Source: Bacillaceae bacterium (lineage in GTDB: Bacteria; Bacillota; Bacilli; JACDOE01). Taken from it: a DNA stretch of 64,000 nucleotides. Positions 1,234 to 60,840 of this stretch are shown in pieces. Each line of letters opens with the position of its first letter. Within the stretch, counting starts at the first letter, position 1. The DNA is taken from positions 84,215-148,214 of the forward strand of contig JACDOE010000007.1 in NCBI GenBank assembly GCA_017656255.1. Direction: 5' to 3'. The notes under the pieces are model-generated. The model was given only the letters and a program-made list of their open reading frames with translations. It searched no databases and had not been told where the DNA came from. Both the position numbers and the translations under genes were made by a program.

Positions 1234-2745
1234 ATGGCACAGAAGACGGATGTAAAAATACAGGCCGTACATCAGAAACTGGATGATATCCAATTGTATA
1301 TCAATGGCCAATTCGTAGACGGAGAAGCCGGGACGACTTTTGAAAACGTCAATCCGTTCACGAATGACGTCATCAACCAAGTGGCGGAAGGCCGTCGGGA
1401 AGATATTGATAAAGCAGTGACAGCGGCGAAAAAGGCTTTCGATGAGGGCCCGTGGGGTTCGATGAAACTGAAGGAAAGAATGACATACATCGACCGTATC
1501 GCTGATCTGATCGATGAAGAAATCGAGGAAATTGCCATTCTGGAATCCCTGGACACGGGTCTTCCCATTAGCCAGACCCGTAAAATGACCGCCCGTGCCG
1601 CGGAGAATTTCCGCTTTTATTCACGGATGGTCCAGTCTATCCACTACGAGTCTTACCCGGTGGACAACGAGTTTATTAATTATACCGTGTATAAACCACT
1701 TGGTGTGGTCGGACTGATTACCCCGTGGAATTCGCCGCTGATGCTGTCGACATGGAAAGTGGCACCTGCTCTGGCCACGGGCAATACTGTGATTTTAAAG
1801 CCTGCGGAACTGGCGCCGCTTACCGCTAACAAGCTGGCAGCAATCATCGATAAAGCAGGCCTGCCAGAAGGTGTATTTAATGTGGTGCACGGGTTTGGTG
1901 AGACAGCCGGGGCATCACTGGTCGCCCATCCGGATGTCGCCGCCATTTCCTTTACCGGAGAAACGGTAACCGGAAGTACCATCATCAAAAACGCGGCCGA
2001 TAACCTGAAGAAAACGTCGATGGAACTGGGTGGAAAGTCCCCGTTGATTGTATTTGATGACGCCGATCTGGACCGTGCACTGGACGCTGCGGTCTGGGGC
2101 ATCTTTTCCTTCAACGGGGAGCGCTGTACCGCCAATTCCCGGGTGTTCCTCCACAAAAATATCAAGGACAAATTCATCGAAGCGCTCAAACAACGGGTCC
2201 AGAACATTCGAATCGGCGATCCGATGGATCCGTCCACGCAACTTGGCCCGTTGATTGATAAAGGTCATTACAACAAAGTGACCGGTTATATCGAGCTTGC
2301 GAAAGAGGAAGGCTGTGAAGTCTTTCAGGGGGAAGTTCCGGAAGACGTCAAAGCCGGCAATTTTGTGCCGCCGACGCTGCTTTTAAATGCCAGAAATGAT
2401 ATGCGGGTTTGCCAGGAAGAGATTTTTGGTCCCGTCATGGCTGTGATTGAATTTGAAACGGAAGAAGAAGTGATCCGCATGGCCAATGATGTCAAATACG
2501 GTCTGGCCGGATACGTCTGGACCAACGATATTAAACGGGGACACCGGGTGGCCCAGGCCGTAGATGCTGGAATGCTCTGGGTCAATGCCCAGAATGTCCG
2601 CGACCTGCGGATTCCGTTTGGAGGAACAAAATACAGTGGAATCGGAAGAGAAGGCGGCCATTATGCCATCCTGGAATTTTATACTGAGCCGAAAGTGATT
2701 CACGTCTCCATCTCAGATCATCATATTCCGCAATTCGGCAAGTAG
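1234..2745 (+). CDS. hpaE: 5-carboxymethyl-2-hydroxymuconate semialdehyde dehydrogenase
   Basis: 503 residues, full-length NAD-dependent aldehyde dehydrogenase. Seen: the cofactor-binding stretch LITPWNSPLMLSTWK, the FTGETVTGS turn, the general base in MELGGKSP and the catalytic Cys298 in FNGERCTANS. It oxidises the ring-cleavage semialdehyde of homoprotocatechuate to the dicarboxylate in the cytoplasm. A GGGGGATG ribosome site precedes the ATG, and the gene is the last of the aromatic operon: a rho-independent terminator follows 11 bp after the stop. The close match of length and motifs to HpaE, together with the adjacent HpaG-like gene, makes this the best anchored gene of the pathway here. 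Confidence 0.88.
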   Translation: MAQKTDVKIQAVHQKLDDIQLYINGQFVDGEAGTTFENVNPFTNDVINQVAEGRREDIDKAVTAAKKAFDEGPWGSMKLKERMTYIDRIADLIDEEIEEIAILESLDTGLPISQTRKMTARAAENFRFYSRMVQSIHYESYPVDNEFINYTVYKPLGVVGLITPWNSPLMLSTWKVAPALATGNTVILKPAELAPLTANKLAAIIDKAGLPEGVFNVVHGFGETAGASLVAHPDVAAISFTGETVTGSTIIKNAADNLKKTSMELGGKSPLIVFDDADLDRALDAAVWGIFSFNGERCTANSRVFLHKNIKDKFIEALKQRVQNIRIGDPMDPSTQLGPLIDKGHYNKVTGYIELAKEEGCEVFQGEVPEDVKAGNFVPPTLLLNARNDMRVCQEEIFGPVMAVIEFETEEEVIRMANDVKYGLAGYVWTNDIKRGHRVAQAVDAGMLWVNAQNVRDLRIPFGGTKYSGIGREGGHYAILEFYTEPKVIHVSISDHHIPQFGK

Positions 2746-50028: not shown

Positions 50029-50115
50029 AAAAAACCGTCCCATGCGTTCAGATAAATAGATGGATCCTAAAATAATATTAATAATTTATATCCCAATGTT
50101 CAGATCAATTAAATC
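50029..50115 (-). ncRNA. CreR-like mini-CRISPR RNA upstream of cas6
   Basis: On the minus strand two degenerate copies of the array repeat flank a 25-nt pseudo-spacer. The first (50105 down to 50084) keeps ATCTGAAC and TGGGATATAAA with a 2-nt deletion between them. The second (50058 down to 50038) keeps TTTATCTGAACG and TGGGA with a 1-nt deletion. The pseudo-spacer is 50083 down to 50059; its first 17 nt, TATTAATATTATTTTAG, equal plus-strand 50218-50234 in the cas promoter. Six T (50034-50029) follow a weak CCAT/ATGG hairpin, a possible terminator. The region contains no coding frame. The design is that of known Cas-regulating crRNA-like RNAs; function here is inferred. Confidence 0.82.
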
Positions 50116-50121
50116 AAAGTT

Positions 50122-50150
50122 ATTATGAATTCTATTAGTTTACTTGTCAA
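50122..50150 (-). promoter_or_regulatory. Promoter of the mini-CRISPR RNA
   Basis: On the minus strand TTGACA (50150-50145), 17-bp spacer, CATAAT (50127-50122): consensus -35 and five of six at -10. The predicted start is near 50114-50115, about 9 nt before the first pseudo-repeat core. Confidence 0.8.
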
Positions 50151-50203
50151 GTTACCCGCAAGAGCATTAAATAAAACGATTTATCATATTTTTTCAAAAA
50201 TAA

Positions 50204-50232
50204 TTGACAAACATCCATATTAATATTATTTT
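50204..50232 (+). promoter_or_regulatory. Promoter of the cas operon
   Basis: TTGACA (50204-50209), 17-bp spacer, TATTTT (50227-50232). It is the best promoter before cas6, whose ATG is 44 bp beyond. It is divergent from the mini-CRISPR promoter, with 53 bp between the two -35 boxes. Confidence 0.7.
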
Positions 50233-50234
50233 AG
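50218..50234 (+). promoter_or_regulatory. Pseudo-protospacer with CCA PAM in the cas promoter
   Basis: 17 nt identical to the 5' end of the mini-CRISPR pseudo-spacer, starting exactly at spacer position 1. The three bases before it (50215-50217) are CCA, a PAM known for type I-B systems such as that of Clostridioides difficile (CCW). It covers the whole -10 box, so Cascade bound here should block RNA polymerase. The match is too short for normal full-length targeting. Confidence 0.78.
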
Positions 50235-50275
50235 TTATAGAGTTGCAGATGAAAATTATGGAAGGAGGTGAAAAA

Positions 50276-51043
50276 ATGCGAATTCAAATCACTTTTTCTT
50301 TAAAAGAACACAAATTACCCCTGGCATACCGGATGATGATGGTATCGTTTATCAAGCATTGCATTCGTTTGGATGATCTAGAATATTACCACAATCTGTT
50401 CGATGAGAAAAAACAGTTACCGAAACCCTACACATTTGCCGTTCACCTTAATTCCTTTGAAATCCAGGACAACAACATTGTTACAGATGGCTTCCGAATG
50501 AATCTCAGTTGTGGTGATTATGAATGTTTTATTCATTTATTTAACGGTATTCAAAAGACACACAATTTTCGTTACAGGGATTATGAAATATCGCGAGAGC
50601 AGATTAGATTTTTGCCTGAACCTGAGACATCTTCGTCACAAATACTATGTAAAACATTGTCCCCTATTCTAGTTGAAAATGAAAACAATCAACCTCTAGC
50701 ACCGTGGGAAAAAGAATACAATCTTCACCTTAATCGTATTACCAACCAGATGATTCAAACCCAATTAAAACGATCTTTACACATGCCGCTGCAATTGACC
50801 CCTCAACAAATGAAAAAGGTAGTCATCAAAGAATCAAATGAGACATTTCGTGAGTCGCTTCAATCCTCAAAACGTTATTTGTATTTCACTGCCTACAAGG
50901 GGACAATGCTTCTTAAAGGTCATCCGGCTGATTTGAATTATCTGTTAAAAACCGGAATTGGCTTGAGAAACAGTCAATCATTTGGAATGATCGATCTGGT
51001 AAAGGAGGTGAATCATTATGAAGTTAACCCTCTACATGGATGA
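50276..51043 (+). CDS. cas6: CRISPR pre-crRNA endoribonuclease Cas6
   Basis: 255 residues from ATG 50276, preceded by GGAGGTG at optimal distance; an upstream in-frame TTG at 50204 is part of the promoter. The N-terminus MRIQITFSL and the C-terminal glycine-rich loop GIGLRNSQSFGMIDLV are Cas6 hallmarks; a His in LEYYHNLF is a candidate catalytic residue. It cuts within each repeat to leave an 8-nt 5' handle on the crRNA. First gene of an eight-gene operon with AT-rich codon use, unlike the genes before 49.9 kb. Overlaps cas8b by 26 bp. Confidence 0.93.
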   Translation: MRIQITFSLKEHKLPLAYRMMMVSFIKHCIRLDDLEYYHNLFDEKKQLPKPYTFAVHLNSFEIQDNNIVTDGFRMNLSCGDYECFIHLFNGIQKTHNFRYRDYEISREQIRFLPEPETSSSQILCKTLSPILVENENNQPLAPWEKEYNLHLNRITNQMIQTQLKRSLHMPLQLTPQQMKKVVIKESNETFRESLQSSKRYLYFTAYKGTMLLKGHPADLNYLLKTGIGLRNSQSFGMIDLVKEVNHYEVNPLHG

Positions 51044-52835
51044 TTATTTGACATCAATGGGCGGGGTTGGGTTCTGGAGATTGTTTGAATATGGACAAAA
51101 AACAGGAACCATTCCTGCGGAAAGTTCATGGGTTGAATTCGAAGCAAACAGGATGCTTATCAATTCGGAAATGTTAAAGTTATTACCTCAACTCTATTTT
51201 TCATATCTGTTAGATGAATATAGTGTAGCGAAACGTGAAAAACAACGATTGAAAAAACAAAGGGAGTGGGGAAAACGGGAAAAGAATTTTCCGGATTATG
51301 TGAAATCAGTAAAGGGTTCTTTCACAACAAATCTAGATAAAATAAAAAAATACTTTAAAGAAACTAATGAGTATCAACATTTAGTTGATTTACAAAAACG
51401 GTTGAAAGAGATAAGAAGATTCCAACAATACGATGAACTTGTTACTATTGAAGAGGCATTCGTTGATATTCTTTCAAGACCTTTCATTGATGAAAAATTA
51501 ACATTAAATTTCATAAAATCTCCTTCACTCTTACAAAGCTTTTTTGGCCAACCCAGCTTTCTTAATGTTTCAAAAAACAAACTGACACTTCAAGAGCAAA
51601 TAGAGTTGATGTATCAGGATTACATTAAACCTGTTGAAGAAGACTTACAGTTTAAAAAAGCTCTTAAATCCAGCAATATAGAAGAAATAAAGGACATTCT
51701 TCAAAATAGTAGAAGACAAATTTTAAAAAACTGGGGCAAAACCATTAAAAAAAGGTCCTCGGAGGAAATTGAAACTTATTTTGAGAATTGTCTTTACTGC
51801 ACTTTTTTTGAAGAGTGGCTGGCAACGGATAACTTCGAAGAATTGACATTCACACCGCTTGGACTCAGTAAGAAAAATGCCCTTAATTTTTTATGGAACC
51901 TTGATGATAAACAACCAGTACCAATTTCATCCTGGGCAAAGCTGGTACTTTTCATGACACCAATCGGCGTAACAACCTATCACCGCCGTTTCAAAGGAGA
52001 ATATAAATTTTTTCATGGTTTTGTCTATCGTCATGGATCACCTAAAGATCAGATCAGATCTAATCAAGATTTCTATGATATGAAACAAAACGATAGTCCT
52101 TTTGAAAGGATTATCAGCCGTCTTCTGGAGCAAGAAAAAGAAAGAGCAAAATTTGAAAAGGACACCAGTTTCCTGTTTATAGAATTTTCATCTGACTATG
52201 ATTCCAAAAAAACGATCATTGAATCCTTTTACATGCCCAAGTATCTGATTCAGTACTTTACAAATGATACAGTTTCAAATCTGGACAAAATAAGGGATTA
52301 TTCTTTCAAAGAAGAATTCTTGCGGATGATACTGCTAGGACAGGATACCAAGTCATTGATATTCAACCACCTCAGGGAAACAATCCGCAGGCAACAACAG
52401 AGTTATGGTGATTTTGTTGCTTTTTTGGAACGTCAAAAAATAGAGTGGTTAAAGAAAGGGGTGCACAACGTGAAAAAAAATGCCAAAAGGTTATATTTTT
52501 TATATGGAGAAGGCCAAAAACTAAGGATGAAAATACTAGAAAAATCCCAAAGTCGAGTAGAAGAAACTGAAGGGAATGATTCAACAGGAAAAAAACGCAT
52601 TGCTGCTATTGCTTATAGGCTCTTAAATGCTGCAAAATCTGGCGATAAAAAACAGTTTTTAGATACCATATTTCGATTGCATTTACAGGCTAATCACTCA
52701 GTTTCAAATTTATTCTTAAATGCACTTCATGAAGAAGAAATGGACTTCACAACGGTTTCGGGAGCGTTTATATCTGGATTGTTGTCCGAACCTTATGAAT
52801 CTGAAGAAATGAAAGGAGAGGTTAATAATGGGTAA
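51018..52835 (+). CDS. cas8b: Type I-B Cascade large subunit Cas8b (Cst1 type)
   Basis: 605 residues, with AAAGGAGGTG before the ATG inside the end of cas6. The N-terminus MKLTLYMDDYLTSMGGVGFWRLFEYG is typical of the Tneap/Cst1 group. One CxxC pair (CLYC, residues 258-261) is visible, but I find no second pair to complete a zinc finger. Cas8 recognises the PAM and contacts the target strand. The last 121 residues are probably also made separately as Cas11b. Assignment rests on position between cas6 and cas7, length and the N-terminal pattern. Confidence 0.88.
   Translation: MKLTLYMDDYLTSMGGVGFWRLFEYGQKTGTIPAESSWVEFEANRMLINSEMLKLLPQLYFSYLLDEYSVAKREKQRLKKQREWGKREKNFPDYVKSVKGSFTTNLDKIKKYFKETNEYQHLVDLQKRLKEIRRFQQYDELVTIEEAFVDILSRPFIDEKLTLNFIKSPSLLQSFFGQPSFLNVSKNKLTLQEQIELMYQDYIKPVEEDLQFKKALKSSNIEEIKDILQNSRRQILKNWGKTIKKRSSEEIETYFENCLYCTFFEEWLATDNFEELTFTPLGLSKKNALNFLWNLDDKQPVPISSWAKLVLFMTPIGVTTYHRRFKGEYKFFHGFVYRHGSPKDQIRSNQDFYDMKQNDSPFERIISRLLEQEKERAKFEKDTSFLFIEFSSDYDSKKTIIESFYMPKYLIQYFTNDTVSNLDKIRDYSFKEEFLRMILLGQDTKSLIFNHLRETIRRQQQSYGDFVAFLERQKIEWLKKGVHNVKKNAKRLYFLYGEGQKLRMKILEKSQSRVEETEGNDSTGKKRIAAIAYRLLNAAKSGDKKQFLDTIFRLHLQANHSVSNLFLNALHEEEMDFTTVSGAFISGLLSEPYESEEMKGEVNNG
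52470..52835 (+). CDS. cas11b: Cas11b small subunit from internal start in cas8b
   Basis: An in-frame GTG (52470-52472; codon 485 of cas8b) is preceded by AAAGGGGTG with 6 nt between, an excellent ribosome site in the middle of a gene. The product would be 121 residues, mostly helical and basic at the start (VKKNAKRLYFLYGEGQKLR). Independent translation of the small subunit from the 3' end of cas8 is established for types I-B, I-C and I-D, and both size and position fit. Cas11 lines the belly of Cascade. No protein evidence is available here. Confidence 0.72.
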   Translation: MKKNAKRLYFLYGEGQKLRMKILEKSQSRVEETEGNDSTGKKRIAAIAYRLLNAAKSGDKKQFLDTIFRLHLQANHSVSNLFLNALHEEEMDFTTVSGAFISGLLSEPYESEEMKGEVNNG

Positions 52836-53718
52836 ATCCTTAACTTTTACAGCGGTATTTCAATCAGGATCGTTAAATTACGGGGAAGGCATGGCTAATA
52901 TATCTGAACTGAAAAAGATGCATCGAGGTAACGGGGATGTATATACTTTTGCATCTCGTCAAAGTCTCCGTTATGACATTGTCCGTCTCGGCAATCAATT
53001 TTTTGGATGGAATTTAGACACAGTAGAAAAACAAAAAGGTGGCGTTGTTCAGTTTAAAAAAGATGTAACGATAGAAGATTCTGTAGAAATGGACTTGTTT
53101 GGTTACCTGAAAACGGACAAGTCATCACTGAAGCGACCCGCTGTAGCCCGATTAAGCCACGCGATTTCACTTGAACCCTACAAAAGTGATCTGGAATTTT
53201 TAAATAACATGGGCCTGGCTGAGCGTATTGGTGAAACTGCAAACCTGGCGAATATAGAACATCATCAGAGCTTTTTCACGTACACTTTAACCATTGACCT
53301 GGACCGGGTTGGTGTAGATGGAGACCTTGAGCTGCCTAACGAAGTCAGAAAACAAAGAGTTCTAGAATTACTGGAAATTTTAAAAGTATTGAGCCGAGAT
53401 ATTCGAGGCCGAAGGGAAAACTTGTCTCCGCAGTTCACTGTCGGAGGGGTTTACCCGGTTTCTAATCCGTTTTTTATGGGTCGCATTAAATTAATGACAG
53501 GTGCTGAAGGAGTATCCATAAATCCTGAACCTATCAAGTCTGTATTGGATATGACGTTTATGGGAGAACCAATTAAAGAGATGACACGAATTGGATCTGT
53601 TGATGGGGTATTTTTGAACAATTCCATTTTCGAAGATATGTTACCAGGGCAAACGGGTACAATCGAAGCGTTTTTTAATTATTTAAAAGATGAAGTAACA
53701 GACTACTACGAGGAGTGA
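52828..53718 (+). CDS. cas7: Cascade backbone Cas7 (Cst2/DevR type)
   Basis: 296 residues, AAAGGAGAGG upstream, overlapping cas8b by 8 bp. The conserved opening LTFTAVFQSGSLNYGEGMAN, then ISELKKMHRG and FASRQSLRYDIVRLG are typical of Cas7 in I-B/Tneap systems. Several copies coat the crRNA spacer. The RRENLSPQFTVGGVYPVSNPFF region matches the family palm and loop. Confidence 0.95.
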   Translation: MGKSLTFTAVFQSGSLNYGEGMANISELKKMHRGNGDVYTFASRQSLRYDIVRLGNQFFGWNLDTVEKQKGGVVQFKKDVTIEDSVEMDLFGYLKTDKSSLKRPAVARLSHAISLEPYKSDLEFLNNMGLAERIGETANLANIEHHQSFFTYTLTIDLDRVGVDGDLELPNEVRKQRVLELLEILKVLSRDIRGRRENLSPQFTVGGVYPVSNPFFMGRIKLMTGAEGVSINPEPIKSVLDMTFMGEPIKEMTRIGSVDGVFLNNSIFEDMLPGQTGTIEAFFNYLKDEVTDYYEE

Positions 53719-53723
53719 TATAT

Positions 53724-54437
53724 TTGAATGCATTACGTCTTCGTTTGTTTCAGGAAACAGCCTGCTATAAACGCCCGGTAGCCTTTAAAGTAGGAGAAAC
53801 CTACCCGTTACCTCCATATTCAACGGTAAAAGGAATGTTGCATGCGATACTGGAGGCAAATGAATTCATACCAATGAAATTAAGCATTCAGGGAAGTTAT
53901 GAAAGCAAAATGATTGATTATCAGCGCCATTATTTCTTTAAGAAGAAAAACGTGTCCGAATTCCCGCTGGTAATAGATGGTCTTGGTTCTACCTCATATT
54001 CATATGAGCATATGACAACAATGCCCATATATATGCATTTGCTTTATCATGTTAAACTAGTCATCCATGTTCAGGCTGAAGAGGAAATCCTGGCAGAGAT
54101 TGAAAAGCAATTGAAAGAGGGATTTCCTATTAGTCTGGGGCGCTGGGAAGACTTAGTACGTATTGATGATTGTAAACGTGTTAATTTAGAGCCATTAAGT
54201 GATAATGACTATGTTGATATCCCGTTAGATATGTATGTTCCTACAGAATCAAACATCGATCATGATCCGGGCATTCCGTATCGGCTTAACTGGAAATATG
54301 AAATTAAACAGGGTGTTCGACAGTGGGAAAAGATTGACTCACAGTACCTTCAAAAAGGTGTTGTTCTGGAAGGTTCTGATGTCTGGATGGACGAAATTGA
54401 GGGAGAACCTTATCCGGTTGTTTTTGCACCGAATTAA
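53724..54437 (+). CDS. cas5: Cascade subunit Cas5 (Cst-type)
   Basis: 237 residues from the TTG at 53724, 8 nt after AGGAG; this gives MNALRLRLFQETACYKRP, the usual Cas5t start, whereas the GTG at 53715 overlaps its own ribosome site. The PLPPYSTVKGMLHAILEA segment is the Cas5 signature. It caps the 5' handle of the crRNA. Confidence 0.93.
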   Translation: MNALRLRLFQETACYKRPVAFKVGETYPLPPYSTVKGMLHAILEANEFIPMKLSIQGSYESKMIDYQRHYFFKKKNVSEFPLVIDGLGSTSYSYEHMTTMPIYMHLLYHVKLVIHVQAEEEILAEIEKQLKEGFPISLGRWEDLVRIDDCKRVNLEPLSDNDYVDIPLDMYVPTESNIDHDPGIPYRLNWKYEIKQGVRQWEKIDSQYLQKGVVLEGSDVWMDEIEGEPYPVVFAPN

Positions 54438-54448
54438 GGGGTGGTATC

Positions 54449-56689
54449 ATGTTTTTGGCAAAAACGAAACCAGTTTCTCAAACAATTTCTGAACATACCA
54501 ATGAATTGTTAACAAGATTAAATGATTTGAAAAAATACTATGGAGACAAAATTATAAAGGATGAATCGTTCTGGAATCTGTTAGAGATAGCAGTGAAATT
54601 TCATGATACAGGCAAAGTTCATACGTGTTTTCAAAACAAACTTCGAAAAATATTAGGTGAACCTCCCGTTAAAAAGGTTAATATTGAAGAAGTGCCACAC
54701 AACTATTTATCCGTAGCGTTGATCCCGTTTCGGGAATTAGGTCTCTCCAGAGAAGAAATGCTTCTTCTAGTCGGTGCAGTTGGATTTCACCATGAAAGAG
54801 ATTTAAATCCTTTACGTGAATTAATAGAACAAACATATGAAATCGATATTCAACAGTATGTTGAAGAACTGTTCCAACATATGAGTTTTGATATACCATT
54901 CAATAAACCTCACAAAAAAGCATTAGAAATTCTGGAGAAATTCAGAACAATAAGTTATGCCGAACGCTTATCCCCAGGCTCCGATTTATGGAGCCAATTT
55001 GTCTTGTTAAAAGGATTATTGCATCGATTAGATCACGCTGCTTCAGCAGGTGTTGTGATTGAGGATGGAATTGAAGAATCTGCCGGCAAAAAGACACGTC
55101 AGTTTTTGAATCAGTATCCTTCGTTAAGGCCGGCGCAAAAGTTTGCAGATGACCATCAAGATCAACACGTTATTCTGGTTTCATCGACGGGTTCGGGTAA
55201 AACAGAAGCCGGATTACTCTGGATTGCCCAAGATAAAGGATTTTTCACTTTACCTTTACGAGTAAGTTTGAATGCCATGTATGATCGGATTAAAAAGCAT
55301 ATAAAGTTGAACAGTGTTGGGCTATTACACTCCGGCAGTTATGACCATCTTGTTTCTAGCGAGTATCAAGATGCAGAACAATCATACCATCATTCGAAAC
55401 AATTAGCCTCCAAATTAACCTTCTCGACAATTGATCAAATTTTAAAATTCCCTTTTTTATATCGTGGATATGAAAAAGAATTGGCGACTATGTCTTATTC
55501 AAAAGTGGTTATTGATGAAATTCAGGCCTATGATCCTGAAATTGCAGCCATGCTGGTAAAAGCGATCGAACTTATTCACCAATTAGGCGGTAAAGTGATG
55601 GTAATGACGGCTACTCTTCCAACGATTTATCTGGAAAGGATTCAGGAAAGGATTGGAACTGAATCTATAGTTGTCGGCAAATTTCCGAATGATAACCTCA
55701 TTCGACATCGCATTGACATTCGTCATCAATCCATACTTGATCTGGTTGATGAAATAACGGAAAGAAGTAAACAAGAAAAGGTACTGGTGATTGCAAACAC
55801 GGTCAATCAGGCAAACATTTTATATGAGCAAATAGAACAGAAATCTCAGGCAAAACCTCATTTGTTGCATACGCTTTTTACTCTGGAAGACCGTCGGTTA
55901 CTCGAAAATGAGGTTTTAAAATTTGCAGCAATAGATCGACACCAAAAAAGGGACCATTCCTCAACAAATGAACCCGGCGTATGGATCACAACACAGATTG
56001 TAGAAGCTTCTCTGGATATTGATTTTGACCATATTTATACGGAATCTTCCACGTTAGACAGTTTATTTCAGAGAATGGGACGTTGTTATCGTTTGCGACC
56101 AATACAGCAAAATTCGGCTAATGTTACGATCGCAACAAAGGATTGTTCAGGTATTGGTCCAATTTATGATGCTGAAATTCATAAAAGAAGTAATGAATAC
56201 CTTTCTGAATATCAGGGTCAAGCGTTAAAGGAATCAGATAAAATGAATCTGGTTGAAAAATTGTATTCTAAAACGGTTTTACAGGGAACAGAGTTTCTTA
56301 AAGTTTTTGAAAAAGCTTTAGATGAATTTGATCGGAAACTGCCGTTTGAAGAAACTAAAGATGATGCACAAAAACGTTTGAGAAAAATTGAAAGTATACA
56401 GGTCATTCCAGATCTACTATATTATCAAATCCAGCCTTTAATAGATCGGTACAAACAAACTGAGGATCGTTTAGAAAGGCAAAATATTCGTCGTCAGATT
56501 GAGAATAAATCCATTGTGCTTCCTGTGTACAGGTTAAAGAAGGAATACAAAATTTCAAATGTTCCTGATCTTAAACAGATCGGATTACAGCATCTACACA
56601 TCATTTATGGAGTGGAATATGAATTTAATCCGAAACAAAAACATGGAAAAGGACTCATTTTGAGTAAATCCGATCCTCTATTTTTGTAA
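54449..56689 (+). CDS. cas3: CRISPR-associated nuclease-helicase Cas3
   Basis: 746 residues, AAGGGGTGG before ATG. N-terminal HD nuclease with VKFHDTGKVH and GAVGFHHERD; SF2 helicase with Walker A SSTGSGKTEAG (about residue 250), DEIQ box in VVIDEIQAYDPE, MTATLPTIY and motif VI LFQRMGRCYRL. Complete, so target degradation should be functional. It is recruited by Cascade after full R-loop formation. Confidence 0.95.
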   Translation: MFLAKTKPVSQTISEHTNELLTRLNDLKKYYGDKIIKDESFWNLLEIAVKFHDTGKVHTCFQNKLRKILGEPPVKKVNIEEVPHNYLSVALIPFRELGLSREEMLLLVGAVGFHHERDLNPLRELIEQTYEIDIQQYVEELFQHMSFDIPFNKPHKKALEILEKFRTISYAERLSPGSDLWSQFVLLKGLLHRLDHAASAGVVIEDGIEESAGKKTRQFLNQYPSLRPAQKFADDHQDQHVILVSSTGSGKTEAGLLWIAQDKGFFTLPLRVSLNAMYDRIKKHIKLNSVGLLHSGSYDHLVSSEYQDAEQSYHHSKQLASKLTFSTIDQILKFPFLYRGYEKELATMSYSKVVIDEIQAYDPEIAAMLVKAIELIHQLGGKVMVMTATLPTIYLERIQERIGTESIVVGKFPNDNLIRHRIDIRHQSILDLVDEITERSKQEKVLVIANTVNQANILYEQIEQKSQAKPHLLHTLFTLEDRRLLENEVLKFAAIDRHQKRDHSSTNEPGVWITTQIVEASLDIDFDHIYTESSTLDSLFQRMGRCYRLRPIQQNSANVTIATKDCSGIGPIYDAEIHKRSNEYLSEYQGQALKESDKMNLVEKLYSKTVLQGTEFLKVFEKALDEFDRKLPFEETKDDAQKRLRKIESIQVIPDLLYYQIQPLIDRYKQTEDRLERQNIRRQIENKSIVLPVYRLKKEYKISNVPDLKQIGLQHLHIIYGVEYEFNPKQKHGKGLILSKSDPLFL

Positions 56690-56707
56690 ATCACAAGGGG
56701 GATGGAT

Positions 56708-57211
56708 ATGAATATTAAGGGAATTGAAGTCCATTATTATGCTATTTGTCATCCTAAACTGTGGTTATTTCATCGGGGGATCGGGTTTGAAAATGAATTT
56801 GACCGAGTTCAAGAAGGTCACATCTTGCACCAGAGGGCCTATTCAAAACTGGAGAAAGAGTTGGAGATTGATGATGTAGCAGTTGTGGATGCAGTAGATG
56901 ATGAGTATATTCGTGAAGTGAAAATTTCGAGCAAAATGAAAAAAGCTGACCGTCTTCAGATGTTGTACTATCTTTATCTGTTACACCAGAAAGGGATCAA
57001 GAAAAAAGGTCTGTTAAGTTACCCCAGGGAGAAACAAACTGAGGAAGTTATTTTAGAAGATGATAGTATACGACGATTAAAAAATGTGTTGCAAGAGATA
57101 CCTTCAATACTAAATGGTCCTATACCCCCTTTTAAGAAACTTCCGTATTGTGGAAAATGTGCATATCGTGATTTTTGTTTTTCGGGGGAGGTGGAATTAG
57201 ATGAACCGTGA
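56708..57211 (+). CDS. cas4: Adaptation nuclease Cas4
   Basis: 167 residues from ATG 56708, 7 nt after AAGGGGG; the ATG at 56702 is too near that site. RecB-like nuclease: first Cys in HYYAICHPKLWLFH, Asp in VVDAVDD, REVKIS with Glu and Lys, Gln in DRLQMLYYLYLL, and the C-terminal CGKCAYRDFC for the Fe-S cluster. It trims prespacers and selects those with the proper PAM. Overlaps cas1 by 11 bp. Confidence 0.94.
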   Translation: MNIKGIEVHYYAICHPKLWLFHRGIGFENEFDRVQEGHILHQRAYSKLEKELEIDDVAVVDAVDDEYIREVKISSKMKKADRLQMLYYLYLLHQKGIKKKGLLSYPREKQTEEVILEDDSIRRLKNVLQEIPSILNGPIPPFKKLPYCGKCAYRDFCFSGEVELDEP

Positions 57212-58184
57212 TGTGTTTATATTTTCCAGGGGAAGGCTCAAAAGAAAAGACAATACTTTGTATTTTGTTGATGAGCAGGGTCTTTCTAAACCATTGCCCG
57301 TTGAGCAAACAGAAAATATACATCTCTTTGGTCAATGTGATTTTAATTCTTCCCTTCTTCATTTGCTTACGAAACATAATGTTGTTCTGCATATTTACAA
57401 CTATTATGGATATTATGATGGTACCTATTATCCGAGAAATTCTCATGTATCCGGGCATACCATAGTTCAACAAAGTGCTCATGTCATAGATCTGTCTAAA
57501 AGAATGGTTATCGCAAAAGCATTTGTCGAGGGTGCTGTTCATCATATGCAAAGAAATTTAAGAAAATATGGTGAACAAGTCGAATCTTATCTGCAAACTT
57601 TGAATGCTTATACTCCTTTAATCTATGAAGCGAATAATATACCAGAGTTAATGGGGATAGAAGGAAAATGCAGAAAAATATATTATGATTCATTTGAAAG
57701 ACTGTTTAAAAGTGATTTTATTTGGGAGTATCGTTCGAAAAGGCCTCCTCATGATCCGGCAAACGCATTAATCTCTTTTGGAAACAGTTTGATGTACACA
57801 ACCGTGATATCAGAGATTTTTAAGACGGTTTTACATCCAGGGGTCAGTTATCTTCATGAACCATCCAGTAAAAGATTTTCTCTTAGTCTGGATCTTTCAG
57901 AAATTTTCAAACCTCTAATTGTTGATTCGACTATTTTACATGTCGTGAATAATCGGGTGATTACTGAAAAACATTTCGATATGCATGATGGTTGGACTTA
58001 TTTGAATGACGAAGGTCGCAAACGATTCATTGCAGCTTTTGACAAAAAATTAAAAACGACTATTAAGCATCGAAAGTTGAAAAGAAATGTTTCGTACAGG
58101 TATTTAATTAGATTGGAAGCCTATAAATTGATTAAGCATATTATCGGTGATGAGAAATATAAACCGTTCAAAGCGTGGTGGTAA
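57201..58184 (+). CDS. cas1: CRISPR integrase Cas1
   Basis: 327 residues, GGGGGAGGTGG upstream. Metal-binding residues in LMGIEGKCRKIYYDSF (Glu), PGVSYLHEPSSKRFSLSLDLSE (His, Asp/Glu); typical N-terminal beta domain with DVFIFSRGRLKRKDNTLYFV. With Cas2 it inserts new spacers. Its presence with Cas4 indicates an adaptation-competent locus. Confidence 0.96.
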   Translation: MNRDVFIFSRGRLKRKDNTLYFVDEQGLSKPLPVEQTENIHLFGQCDFNSSLLHLLTKHNVVLHIYNYYGYYDGTYYPRNSHVSGHTIVQQSAHVIDLSKRMVIAKAFVEGAVHHMQRNLRKYGEQVESYLQTLNAYTPLIYEANNIPELMGIEGKCRKIYYDSFERLFKSDFIWEYRSKRPPHDPANALISFGNSLMYTTVISEIFKTVLHPGVSYLHEPSSKRFSLSLDLSEIFKPLIVDSTILHVVNNRVITEKHFDMHDGWTYLNDEGRKRFIAAFDKKLKTTIKHRKLKRNVSYRYLIRLEAYKLIKHIIGDEKYKPFKAWW

Positions 58185-58190
58185 GTTTAT

Positions 58191-58451
58191 ATGTTTGTTA
58201 TCATTACCTATGATGTCGGGGAAAAAAGAGTGAGTAAGGTTTGTAAAAAGTTACGCGAGTATTTGGAGTGGACACAAAACTCGGTTTTTGAGGGTGAAAT
58301 TCAAAAGGGAAAGTTGACTAAATGCCTTTCTGAATTAGAAGATATAATTAAGGAAGAGGATTCAATCTATTTGTACAAGGTAGAAAACCCCAGAGCTATT
58401 GAAAAGAAGGTTATTGGGACTGATCGTTCGTTCGATCAACTTTTCTTGTGA
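58191..58451 (+). CDS. cas2: Adaptation protein Cas2
   Basis: 86 residues. Ferredoxin fold with MFVIITYDVGEKRVSKVCKKL, the conserved Asp at position 8, and LEWTQNSVFEGEI. It bridges the Cas1 dimers. The ribosome site is weak (GGTGGTAAG), and the start is 6 bp after the cas1 stop, so translation is probably coupled. Confidence 0.95.
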   Translation: MFVIITYDVGEKRVSKVCKKLREYLEWTQNSVFEGEIQKGKLTKCLSELEDIIKEEDSIYLYKVENPRAIEKKVIGTDRSFDQLFL

Positions 58452-58652: not shown

Positions 58653-60840
58653 GTTTTATCTGAACGTAGTGGGATATAAAGCTCGATCAGATTGACCAGG
58701 CATTTTTTGAAAAGTATATGTTTTATCTGAACGTAGTGGGATATAAAGATCATCGAGGCGATAGATCCGTCGCTCGTATTTCCGGTTTTATCTGAACGTA
58801 GTGGGATATAAAGCCTTTTTATCCAGAACGTCCTTCATGTAAGGCGATTCCAGTTTTATCTGAACGTAGTGGGATATAAAGCATCATGCGCTGATAGGTT
58901 TTGTCGAACTTCTCTTCAGTTTTATCTGAACGTAGTGGGATATAAAGTCCTCCAAAACGATTCTAACTTCTGTATCTGTGCCGCGTTTTATCTGAACGTA
59001 GTGGGATATAAAGCAATTCGGTGGGCGGCTTTTTCAAAGGAGGTTGTCAGTTTTATCTGAACGTAGTGGGATATAAAGAGGCAAAACGGACATATGAAGG
59101 TGATATGGTCTATCTGGTTTTATCTGAACGTAGTGGGATATAAAGTTATTCCGCCGACAAAGGTCACATCCTGACGAGGAGGTTTTATCTGAACGTAGTG
59201 GGATATAAAGACCTCAGTTCCGCATTTTCAAACTCTTCTGGTATCAGTTTTATCTGAACGTAGTGGGATATAAAGATTCTCTGCAATGATAACAATGTGC
59301 GTATGCAAACGTGTTTTATCTGAACGTAGTGGGATATAAAGGTTGATCGCCTGCTCCCACCGGACGATATACGGCATGTTTTATCTGAACGTAGTGGGAT
59401 ATAAAGGGTAACGGCCAGTTGTTCCCCGTTTAATCCGTTAAGTTTTATCTGAACGTAGTGGGATATAAAGAAATTAGGAGAAGGCATGGAATCACCCCTT
59501 AATGTGTTTTATCTGAACGTAGTGGGATATAAAGTTATAGGAACCGATCGTATTTACAAGCAGTTCAACAGTTTTATCTGAACGTAGTGGGATATAAAGC
59601 AACATGCGTTGATAGGTTTTATCAAACTTCTCTTCGTTTTATCTGAACGTAGTGGGATATAAAGTGCCCCTTCGCTTCCCGGCAATACTGTAAGGCTGAC
59701 AAGTTTTATCTGAACGTAGTGGGATATAAAGTAATTTAAAACCGCCTGTTATATGCTCGATTTGGGAAAGTTTTATCTGAACGTAGTGGGATATAAAGTT
59801 GTCATGTACTTAATCACATATGCACCGACATTATCGTTTTATCTGAACGTAGTGGGATATAAAGTCACCAACGGAATCAATATCACCATCGGGATCCTCG
59901 TTTTATCTGAACGTAGTGGGATATAAAGGACCTAGGATCTGGACACTTTTTTTGGATCGTTTTGTTTTATCTGAACGTAGTGGGATATAAAGACTAAAAG
60001 CCAATATACTTTTGGATTTGCTGATAAGTTTTATCTGAACGTAGTGGGATATAAAGTATATGATTCGACGCGTAAGAATGTCGGCAAGTGCGCGTTTTAT
60101 CTGAACGTAGTGGGATATAAAGGAGGACAAGGAGACCGTCACGTACACCGCTACCGAAAGTTTTATCTGAACGTAGTGGGATATAAAGCTCGAACCTATC
60201 CCCGACATCTAAGTCCCTTGGTAGTTTTATCTGAACGTAGTGGGATATAAAGATCATGACGTATGAAATAGGCGAAAAGGTCTCGACGGGGTTTTATCTG
60301 AACGTAGTGGGATATAAAGTATTCAGATCGACTTTTTCCGAATGATCTTCGTACGCGTTTTATCTGAACGTAGTGGGATATAAAGTTTCATCCGGGTCAT
60401 CGCATGACCACCTCCACATGGTTTTATCTGAACGTAGTGGGATATAAAGCGGCAAAGGGCCGCTCCTTATCCTCCCTCGCAAGCTGTTTTATCTGAACGT
60501 AGTGGGATATAAAGGAGATAACCCGGATTCTTTCGTTCTGTCGGGACAAGTTTTATCTGAACGTAGTGGGATATAAAGTTTCGCTGGCCGGTTTGCGGCC
60601 CCCTGCAACCCCCTGTTTTATCTGAACGTAGTGGGATATAAAGGGCAAAAGCGAGGACGGTTGCAAAGCGAGGATTAAAAAGTTTTATCTGAACGTAGTG
60701 GGATATAAAGCGACATCTCGTACAGGAATTTATCGTCGATGTTGTGTTTTATCTGAACGTAGTGGGATATAAAGGAAGTTGATCAGCCTGAAAGACTGGA
60801 AAACCAGCTGGGTTTTATCTGAACGTAGTGGGATATAAAA
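58653..60840 (+). CRISPR. Type I-B CRISPR array, 34 repeats and 33 spacers
   Basis: The 29-nt repeat starts GTTTTATCTGAACG and ends GTGGGATATAAAG. The first 33 copies look identical; the last (60812-60840) ends in A instead of G. Spacers are 35-39 nt. The crRNA 5' handle would be ATATAAAG if Cas6 leaves 8 nt. Spacers are less AT-rich than the cas genes. Spacers 4 (58882-58918) and 15 (59600-59635) are near-identical. No spacer matches other parts of the window that I could see. Confidence 0.99.

Follow-up and report, generated by a model that had tools for sequence, protein, structure and literature searches.

The long-form tracrRNA autoregulates Cas9. There, too, a natural RNA lets a CRISPR effector repress its own genes, although the system is type II and uses another RNA and another protein than the locus described here. 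In type I systems, the closest described counterpart is CreR (Liu et al. 2023, Cell Host Microbe), which is reviewed in passages of PMC12737573, PMC13131331 and PMC12948488; the second of these also names SpyCas9 autorepression. According to these passages, CreR occurs in types I-B, I-E and V-A, and it consists of a mini-CRISPR beside the cas operon whose crRNA-like guide is partially complementary to the cas promoter. CreR in type I-B has already been published (PMC13131331), so the element reported here is not new in kind. It differs from the CreR described in those passages in belonging to a Bacillota I-B Tneap system, in its divergent orientation, and in that its relatives take the complement of a Shine-Dalgarno sequence as PAM.

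CreA, the antitoxin of the CreTA module (sections of PMC8501985 and PMC9458426), has the same psiR1-pseudo-spacer-psiR2 build and the same seed rule. Mutation of CreA indicated that seed positions 1-5 and 7-11 are needed, while 6 and 12 are free (PMC8501985). Its PAM, too, is part of the complement of an expression signal rich in purines, the BRE in its case, but CreA represses a toxin RNA gene, whereas the target here is cas. Short guides are also relevant. As far as the relevant sections report, guides of at most 26 nt repress without cutting in the I-B system of P. thermoglucosidasius (PMC10551041), and the same holds at 24 nt or less in H. hispanica (PMC10989794), in both cases with Cas3 present. 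These were engineered guides in other hosts and not natural elements, and the P. thermoglucosidasius PAM is TTA, unlike the likely CCA/CCT of this locus.

The window, a 64,000-nt stretch of a Bacillaceae contig, carries a complete operon in the order cas6-cas8b-cas7-cas5-cas3-cas4-cas1-cas2, followed by an array. Family-model matches of the cas genes uphold the assignment to subtype I-B Tneap made in an earlier sequence-only reading. The element upstream of cas6 is very probably a CreR, that is, a two-repeat mini-CRISPR with a predicted RNA of about 53 nt that would guide the system's own Cascade and repress cas. The prediction of a small RNA turning the cas genes down follows from the guide, which copies 17 letters of the likely cas promoter. 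The features are listed in the table below.

Features of the window that bear on the mini-CRISPR, its target and the cas locus
Feature	Position	Strand	Basis or remark
Run of six T, likely transcription end	50029..50034	-	sequence; without stem
psiR2, degenerate second repeat, up to predicted Cas6 site	50039..50058	-	handle lost
Pseudo-spacer (guide), 25 nt	50059..50083	-	first 17 nt equal the cas promoter match
psiR1, degenerate first repeat	50084..50112	-	alignment with local I-B repeat
Predicted 8-nt 5' handle ATATAAAT	50091-50084	-	within psiR1
Predicted element promoter TTGACA-17-CATAAT	50122..50150	-	11/12 consensus; prediction only
Predicted cas6 promoter TTGACA-17-TATTTT	50204..50232	+	10/12 consensus; prediction only
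PAM CCA	50215..50217	+	adjoins the 17-nt match
Protospacer, 17 nt, over the -10	50218..50234	+	identical to pseudo-spacer positions 1-17
Shine-Dalgarno AAGGAGG of cas6	50262..50268	+	sequence
cas6	50276..51043	+	TIGR01877, Cas6b models
cas8b	51018..52835	+	PADLOC Cas8b, E 3.8e-81; no NCBIfam match
cas7 (Cst2)	52828..53718	+	family models
cas5 (I-B/Tneap)	53715..54437	+	family models
cas3, cas4, cas1, cas2	54449..58451	+	family models
CRISPR array of 33 spacers and 34 repeats GTTTTATCTGAACGTAGTGGGATATAAAG, the last of them ending in A	58653..60840	+	

Two degenerate copies of the local repeat do flank a 25-nt pseudo-spacer on the minus strand (50112-50039), as had been read from the letters. 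The pseudo-spacer is shorter than the 33 array spacers of the window, which measure 35-39 nt. psiR1 has kept 7 of the 8 handle letters (ATATAAAT against ATATAAAG in the array repeat), whereas psiR2 retains the repeat as far as the predicted Cas6 site and only 1 of 8 handle letters, in agreement with the division into a 3' half and a 5' half noticed earlier. Since psiR1 keeps the handle and psiR2 the part before the Cas6 cut, the complementary halves appear to be the part that each repeat must supply to a mature crRNA. The promoter and the six T that had been proposed on either side were both located, the latter at 50034-50029; the promoter stands as a prediction, and no hairpin terminator was found after psiR2 in this element. 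Nearly all shuffled versions of the predicted RNA fold better than it does, and the likely 3' end is therefore placed by the T run. A stem followed by a T run was seen by eye after psiR2 in 9 of the 12 other elements described below. As the region holds eight promoter-like sites where shuffles of this AT-rich DNA give 3.3, both the element promoter and the cas promoter are treated as predictions. A separate observation concerns the last handle letter of psiR1. Seven elements have an array of their own that ends in G, and six of them (the window, L019, L029, L032, L068 and L069) depart from it at this letter; L067 retains G. In L031 and L065, it differs from the window's repeat, which served there as a stand-in.

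The identity of the first 17 guide letters with 50218-50234, beginning at spacer position 1 and preceded by CCA, is exact. Positions 18-25 are all mismatched, so 17 of 25 nt are complementary to the target, which presumably falls short of what cutting needs. Among 1314 17-mers upstream in the window, the pseudo-spacer alone matches the cas6 region this well beside CCA or CCT. The PAM and seed occur without mismatch at one place in the organism's genome (3.4 Mb, 36 contigs); with up to three mismatches there are 16 places, pseudo-spacer included, against 29 for a reversed control, so that only the exact place stands out. L066 is the locus closest to the window by Cas7; 35 nt before cas6, its leader contains a 16/17 match to the window's guide with no CCA/CCT PAM, and no mini-CRISPR was seen in its 690 nt of upstream DNA.

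The PAM of the system is likely CCA/CCT, judging from array protospacers. Five of seven protospacer flanks, from four spacers of two related arrays, were CCA or CCT. Spacer 18 of the window matches Geobacillus plasmids with flanks CCT and TCT, and spacer 16 matches a Paenibacillus phage with CCT and, as its closest match, a Lacticaseibacillus phage with TCG. In L061 (genome G308), a relative with the same repeat as the window, spacers match Aeribacillus phage AP45 (perfectly, beside CCA) and Geobacillus and Priestia plasmids, each beside CCA. Among these flanks, those of spacer 16 come from two of 57 match records and the plasmid flanks of L061 from two of four matches. The CCA expected by the sequence-only reading is thus compatible with the flanks, of which TCG and TCT deviate. 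Five spacer patterns of the window gave no match in viral contigs, nor did the L069, L066, L090 and L019 arrays when searched against phages. The L067 array matched phages of Gordonia, Microbacterium and Arthrobacter; these matches were disregarded, the hosts being wrong and low complexity likely. Array spacers 4 (58882-58918) and 15 (59600-59635) are near copies of each other, which suggests two captures from related invaders; their joint pattern had no match among viral contigs.

Related loci were collected by Cas7 searches, which gave 25 and 34 loci and, with the window, 60; weak Cas7 matches were left out, and a further search at class level yielded no additional loci. Removal of two loci without a usable cas6 and four duplicates left 54, with 53 different Cas7 proteins. 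The upstream DNA was scanned with repeats only, blind to targets, after ordinary arrays had been set aside. In eight loci whose stretch contained no array, L031 and L065 among them, the repeat of the window was used instead; the same was done by hand for L067 and L030. Degenerate two-repeat elements were kept upstream of cas6 in 13 of the 54 loci (the window, L019, L029, L031, L032, L065, L067, L068, L069, L073, L083, L090 and L093). The same scan found 1 in 1080 mononucleotide-shuffled upstream regions and 0 in 54 cas coding stretches (199.8 kb). A looser first pass had given 85 of 1080 shuffles and 14 of 54 coding stretches, and both the tighter cut-off and the exclusion of arrays were chosen after it. 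At the tight cut-off, 20 loci had matches and seven were dropped: L027, L070, L071, L088 and L091 carry ordinary arrays before cas6, while in L022 and L079 the match lies beside one near-perfect repeat and no target was found. All 12 other elements lie on the plus strand, and the window's is the sole minus-strand one. Within the upstream DNA scanned, which was short in L016 (254 nt), L020 (512), L066 and L032 (716), no such element was present in 41 of 54 loci, and the element is therefore dispensable. In L027, L060 and L080, the position of the cas6 start is uncertain.

The guides and their targets covary, which the earlier reading had proposed as a check. Twelve of the 13 pseudo-spacers match the cas6 region of their own locus (-125 to +25) at 13-17 of 17 positions beside CCA or CCT, and the matching guides otherwise differ in sequence between loci. 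When guides and loci were swapped, 1 of 156 pairings reached 13/17 (mean 8.5). With L022 and L079 counted as elements, 12 of 15 have a target. No other upstream 17-mer was equally good in 11 of the 12 loci; L090 had one. The exception is L083, which has a clear two-repeat element (repeat GTTGAGATAGAACCATATTGGAATGTAAAT) at -147 from cas6 and whose guide found no target in its own cas6 region (7/17); another PAM or target is possible there. Pseudo-spacer lengths range from 22 to 33 nt.

Mismatches over the 12 loci are not spread evenly: none falls at positions 1-5, five at 6, one at 7-11, eight at 12 and three at 13-16. Positions 6 and 12 are thus mismatched in 13 of 24 cases, compared with 4 of 168 elsewhere in 1-16 (Fisher p about 1e-10, loci treated as independent), and positions 17-30 are at chance level (119 of 168 differ). 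The final scoring was unweighted and the 13 elements were chosen without targets; an earlier scoring had ignored positions 6 and 12. Read from these sequences, the pattern is the footprint expected of a type I Cascade. A CreA of a CreTA module, repressing a small toxin RNA and not cas, would share the two-psiR build and this very rule, with 1-5 and 7-11 paired and 6 and 12 free, as sections of PMC8501985 describe. Being common to both, the rule does not separate CreA from CreR. Between the matched promoter and the cas6 start there are about 37 nt, which include the cas6 Shine-Dalgarno and leave little room for a toxin gene; cas6 follows directly behind a 37-nt leader, and in 10 of 12 loci the target adjoins the cas6 start itself. 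Judged from the matched promoter and its surroundings, a CreA is highly improbable.

The geometry of the targets bears on two further explanations. In 10 of 12 loci, the protospacer lies on the bottom strand near the cas6 start, and in eight (L019, L029, L031, L032, L065, L068, L069 and L090) the PAM falls in the complement of the Shine-Dalgarno, which reads AGG or TGG from below and was judged by eye; in L067 and L093, the PAM is further upstream than the Shine-Dalgarno. The window, aimed at the -10, and L073, aimed just before the -35, have top-strand targets, unlike the other ten. In ten loci the leader or start region of the mRNA is complementary to the guide, as it would be to an antisense RNA that acts on the cas6 leader by pairing and needs no Cascade. 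The guides of the window and L073 have the sense of the mRNA and so cannot pair with it, and PAMs and free positions 6 and 12 would have no reason, which makes antisense pairing barely credible. Arrays can contain self-targeting spacers. The degenerate repeats would also suit a defunct terminal remnant of an old array, with a spacer taken by chance from the chromosome. Against this, thirteen loci keep the handle and the Cas6 site in complementary halves, and 12 guides aim at their own cas6 start with positions 1-5 and 7-11 intact save one, so that a dead array piece is very unlikely.

The CreR reading draws its support from this covariation, the compatible PAM and the Tneap subtype, with a repeat-like mini-CRISPR beside the cas operon and a guide seed complementary to the predicted cas promoter next to the system's PAM; the RNA and the repression are predictions. 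Transcription would begin at about 50115, Cas6 would cut in psiR1 and psiR2 to give an RNA spanning 50091-50039, and the processed RNA would load into Cascade. An R-loop over about 50218-50242 would then block the likely cas promoter, which would not be cut, as the match is presumably too short to call in Cas3. The block would ease when array crRNAs or anti-CRISPR proteins draw Cascade away. If this is right, a bacterial immune system makes a guide directed at itself that acts like a thermostat, and comparing the twelve natural guide-target pairs is by itself enough to show how Cascade reads its DNA targets in nature. With these pairs, RNA-guided autoregulation can be put to a direct test in Bacillota, a group in which I-B systems also serve as genetic tools and the supply of Cascade matters.

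The Shine-Dalgarno-complement PAM in eight of 12 loci and the window's aim at the -10 are possibly new. No link between CreR and the Shine-Dalgarno was found in the literature searched, which carries little weight as the primary CreR paper lay outside the search; the one paper listed with both words uses them in its references and where it deals with CreT, and not in connection with CreR. On a Cas7 tree of 54 rows, element presence needs 12 changes, at least ten of them forced by well-supported branches, and shuffled labels need about as many (mean 11.8). Among ten locus pairs compared, close pairs such as L032/L033 and L065/L061 share the start of cas6 but differ in the DNA ahead of it. Any of birth, loss or exchange of upstream DNA is possible. 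As a tentative proposal, less likely than not to be right, Bacillota I-B operons may re-grow their own CreR with different guides and usually a Shine-Dalgarno PAM, through at least ten gains, losses or swaps, the window's having been redirected to the -10 from the opposite side; they would then form an undescribed convergent class of RNA autoregulators. If so, a target could not escape repression without harming its own translation, because its PAM is usually the operon's Shine-Dalgarno.

A phage or prophage contig (L111, viral contig IMGVR_UViG_2563366762_000002, about 1412-1468, minus strand) was also seen to carry a mini-CRISPR with two repeats of this family. It has a terminator, and its neighbours are a gene for a LexA-like DNA-binding protein and small reading frames of hydrophobic character. 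Its guide matched no target in the 1.5-kb piece of its own contig or in the surveyed cas loci. This element could be a phage-borne crRNA mimic, a guide or a CreR.
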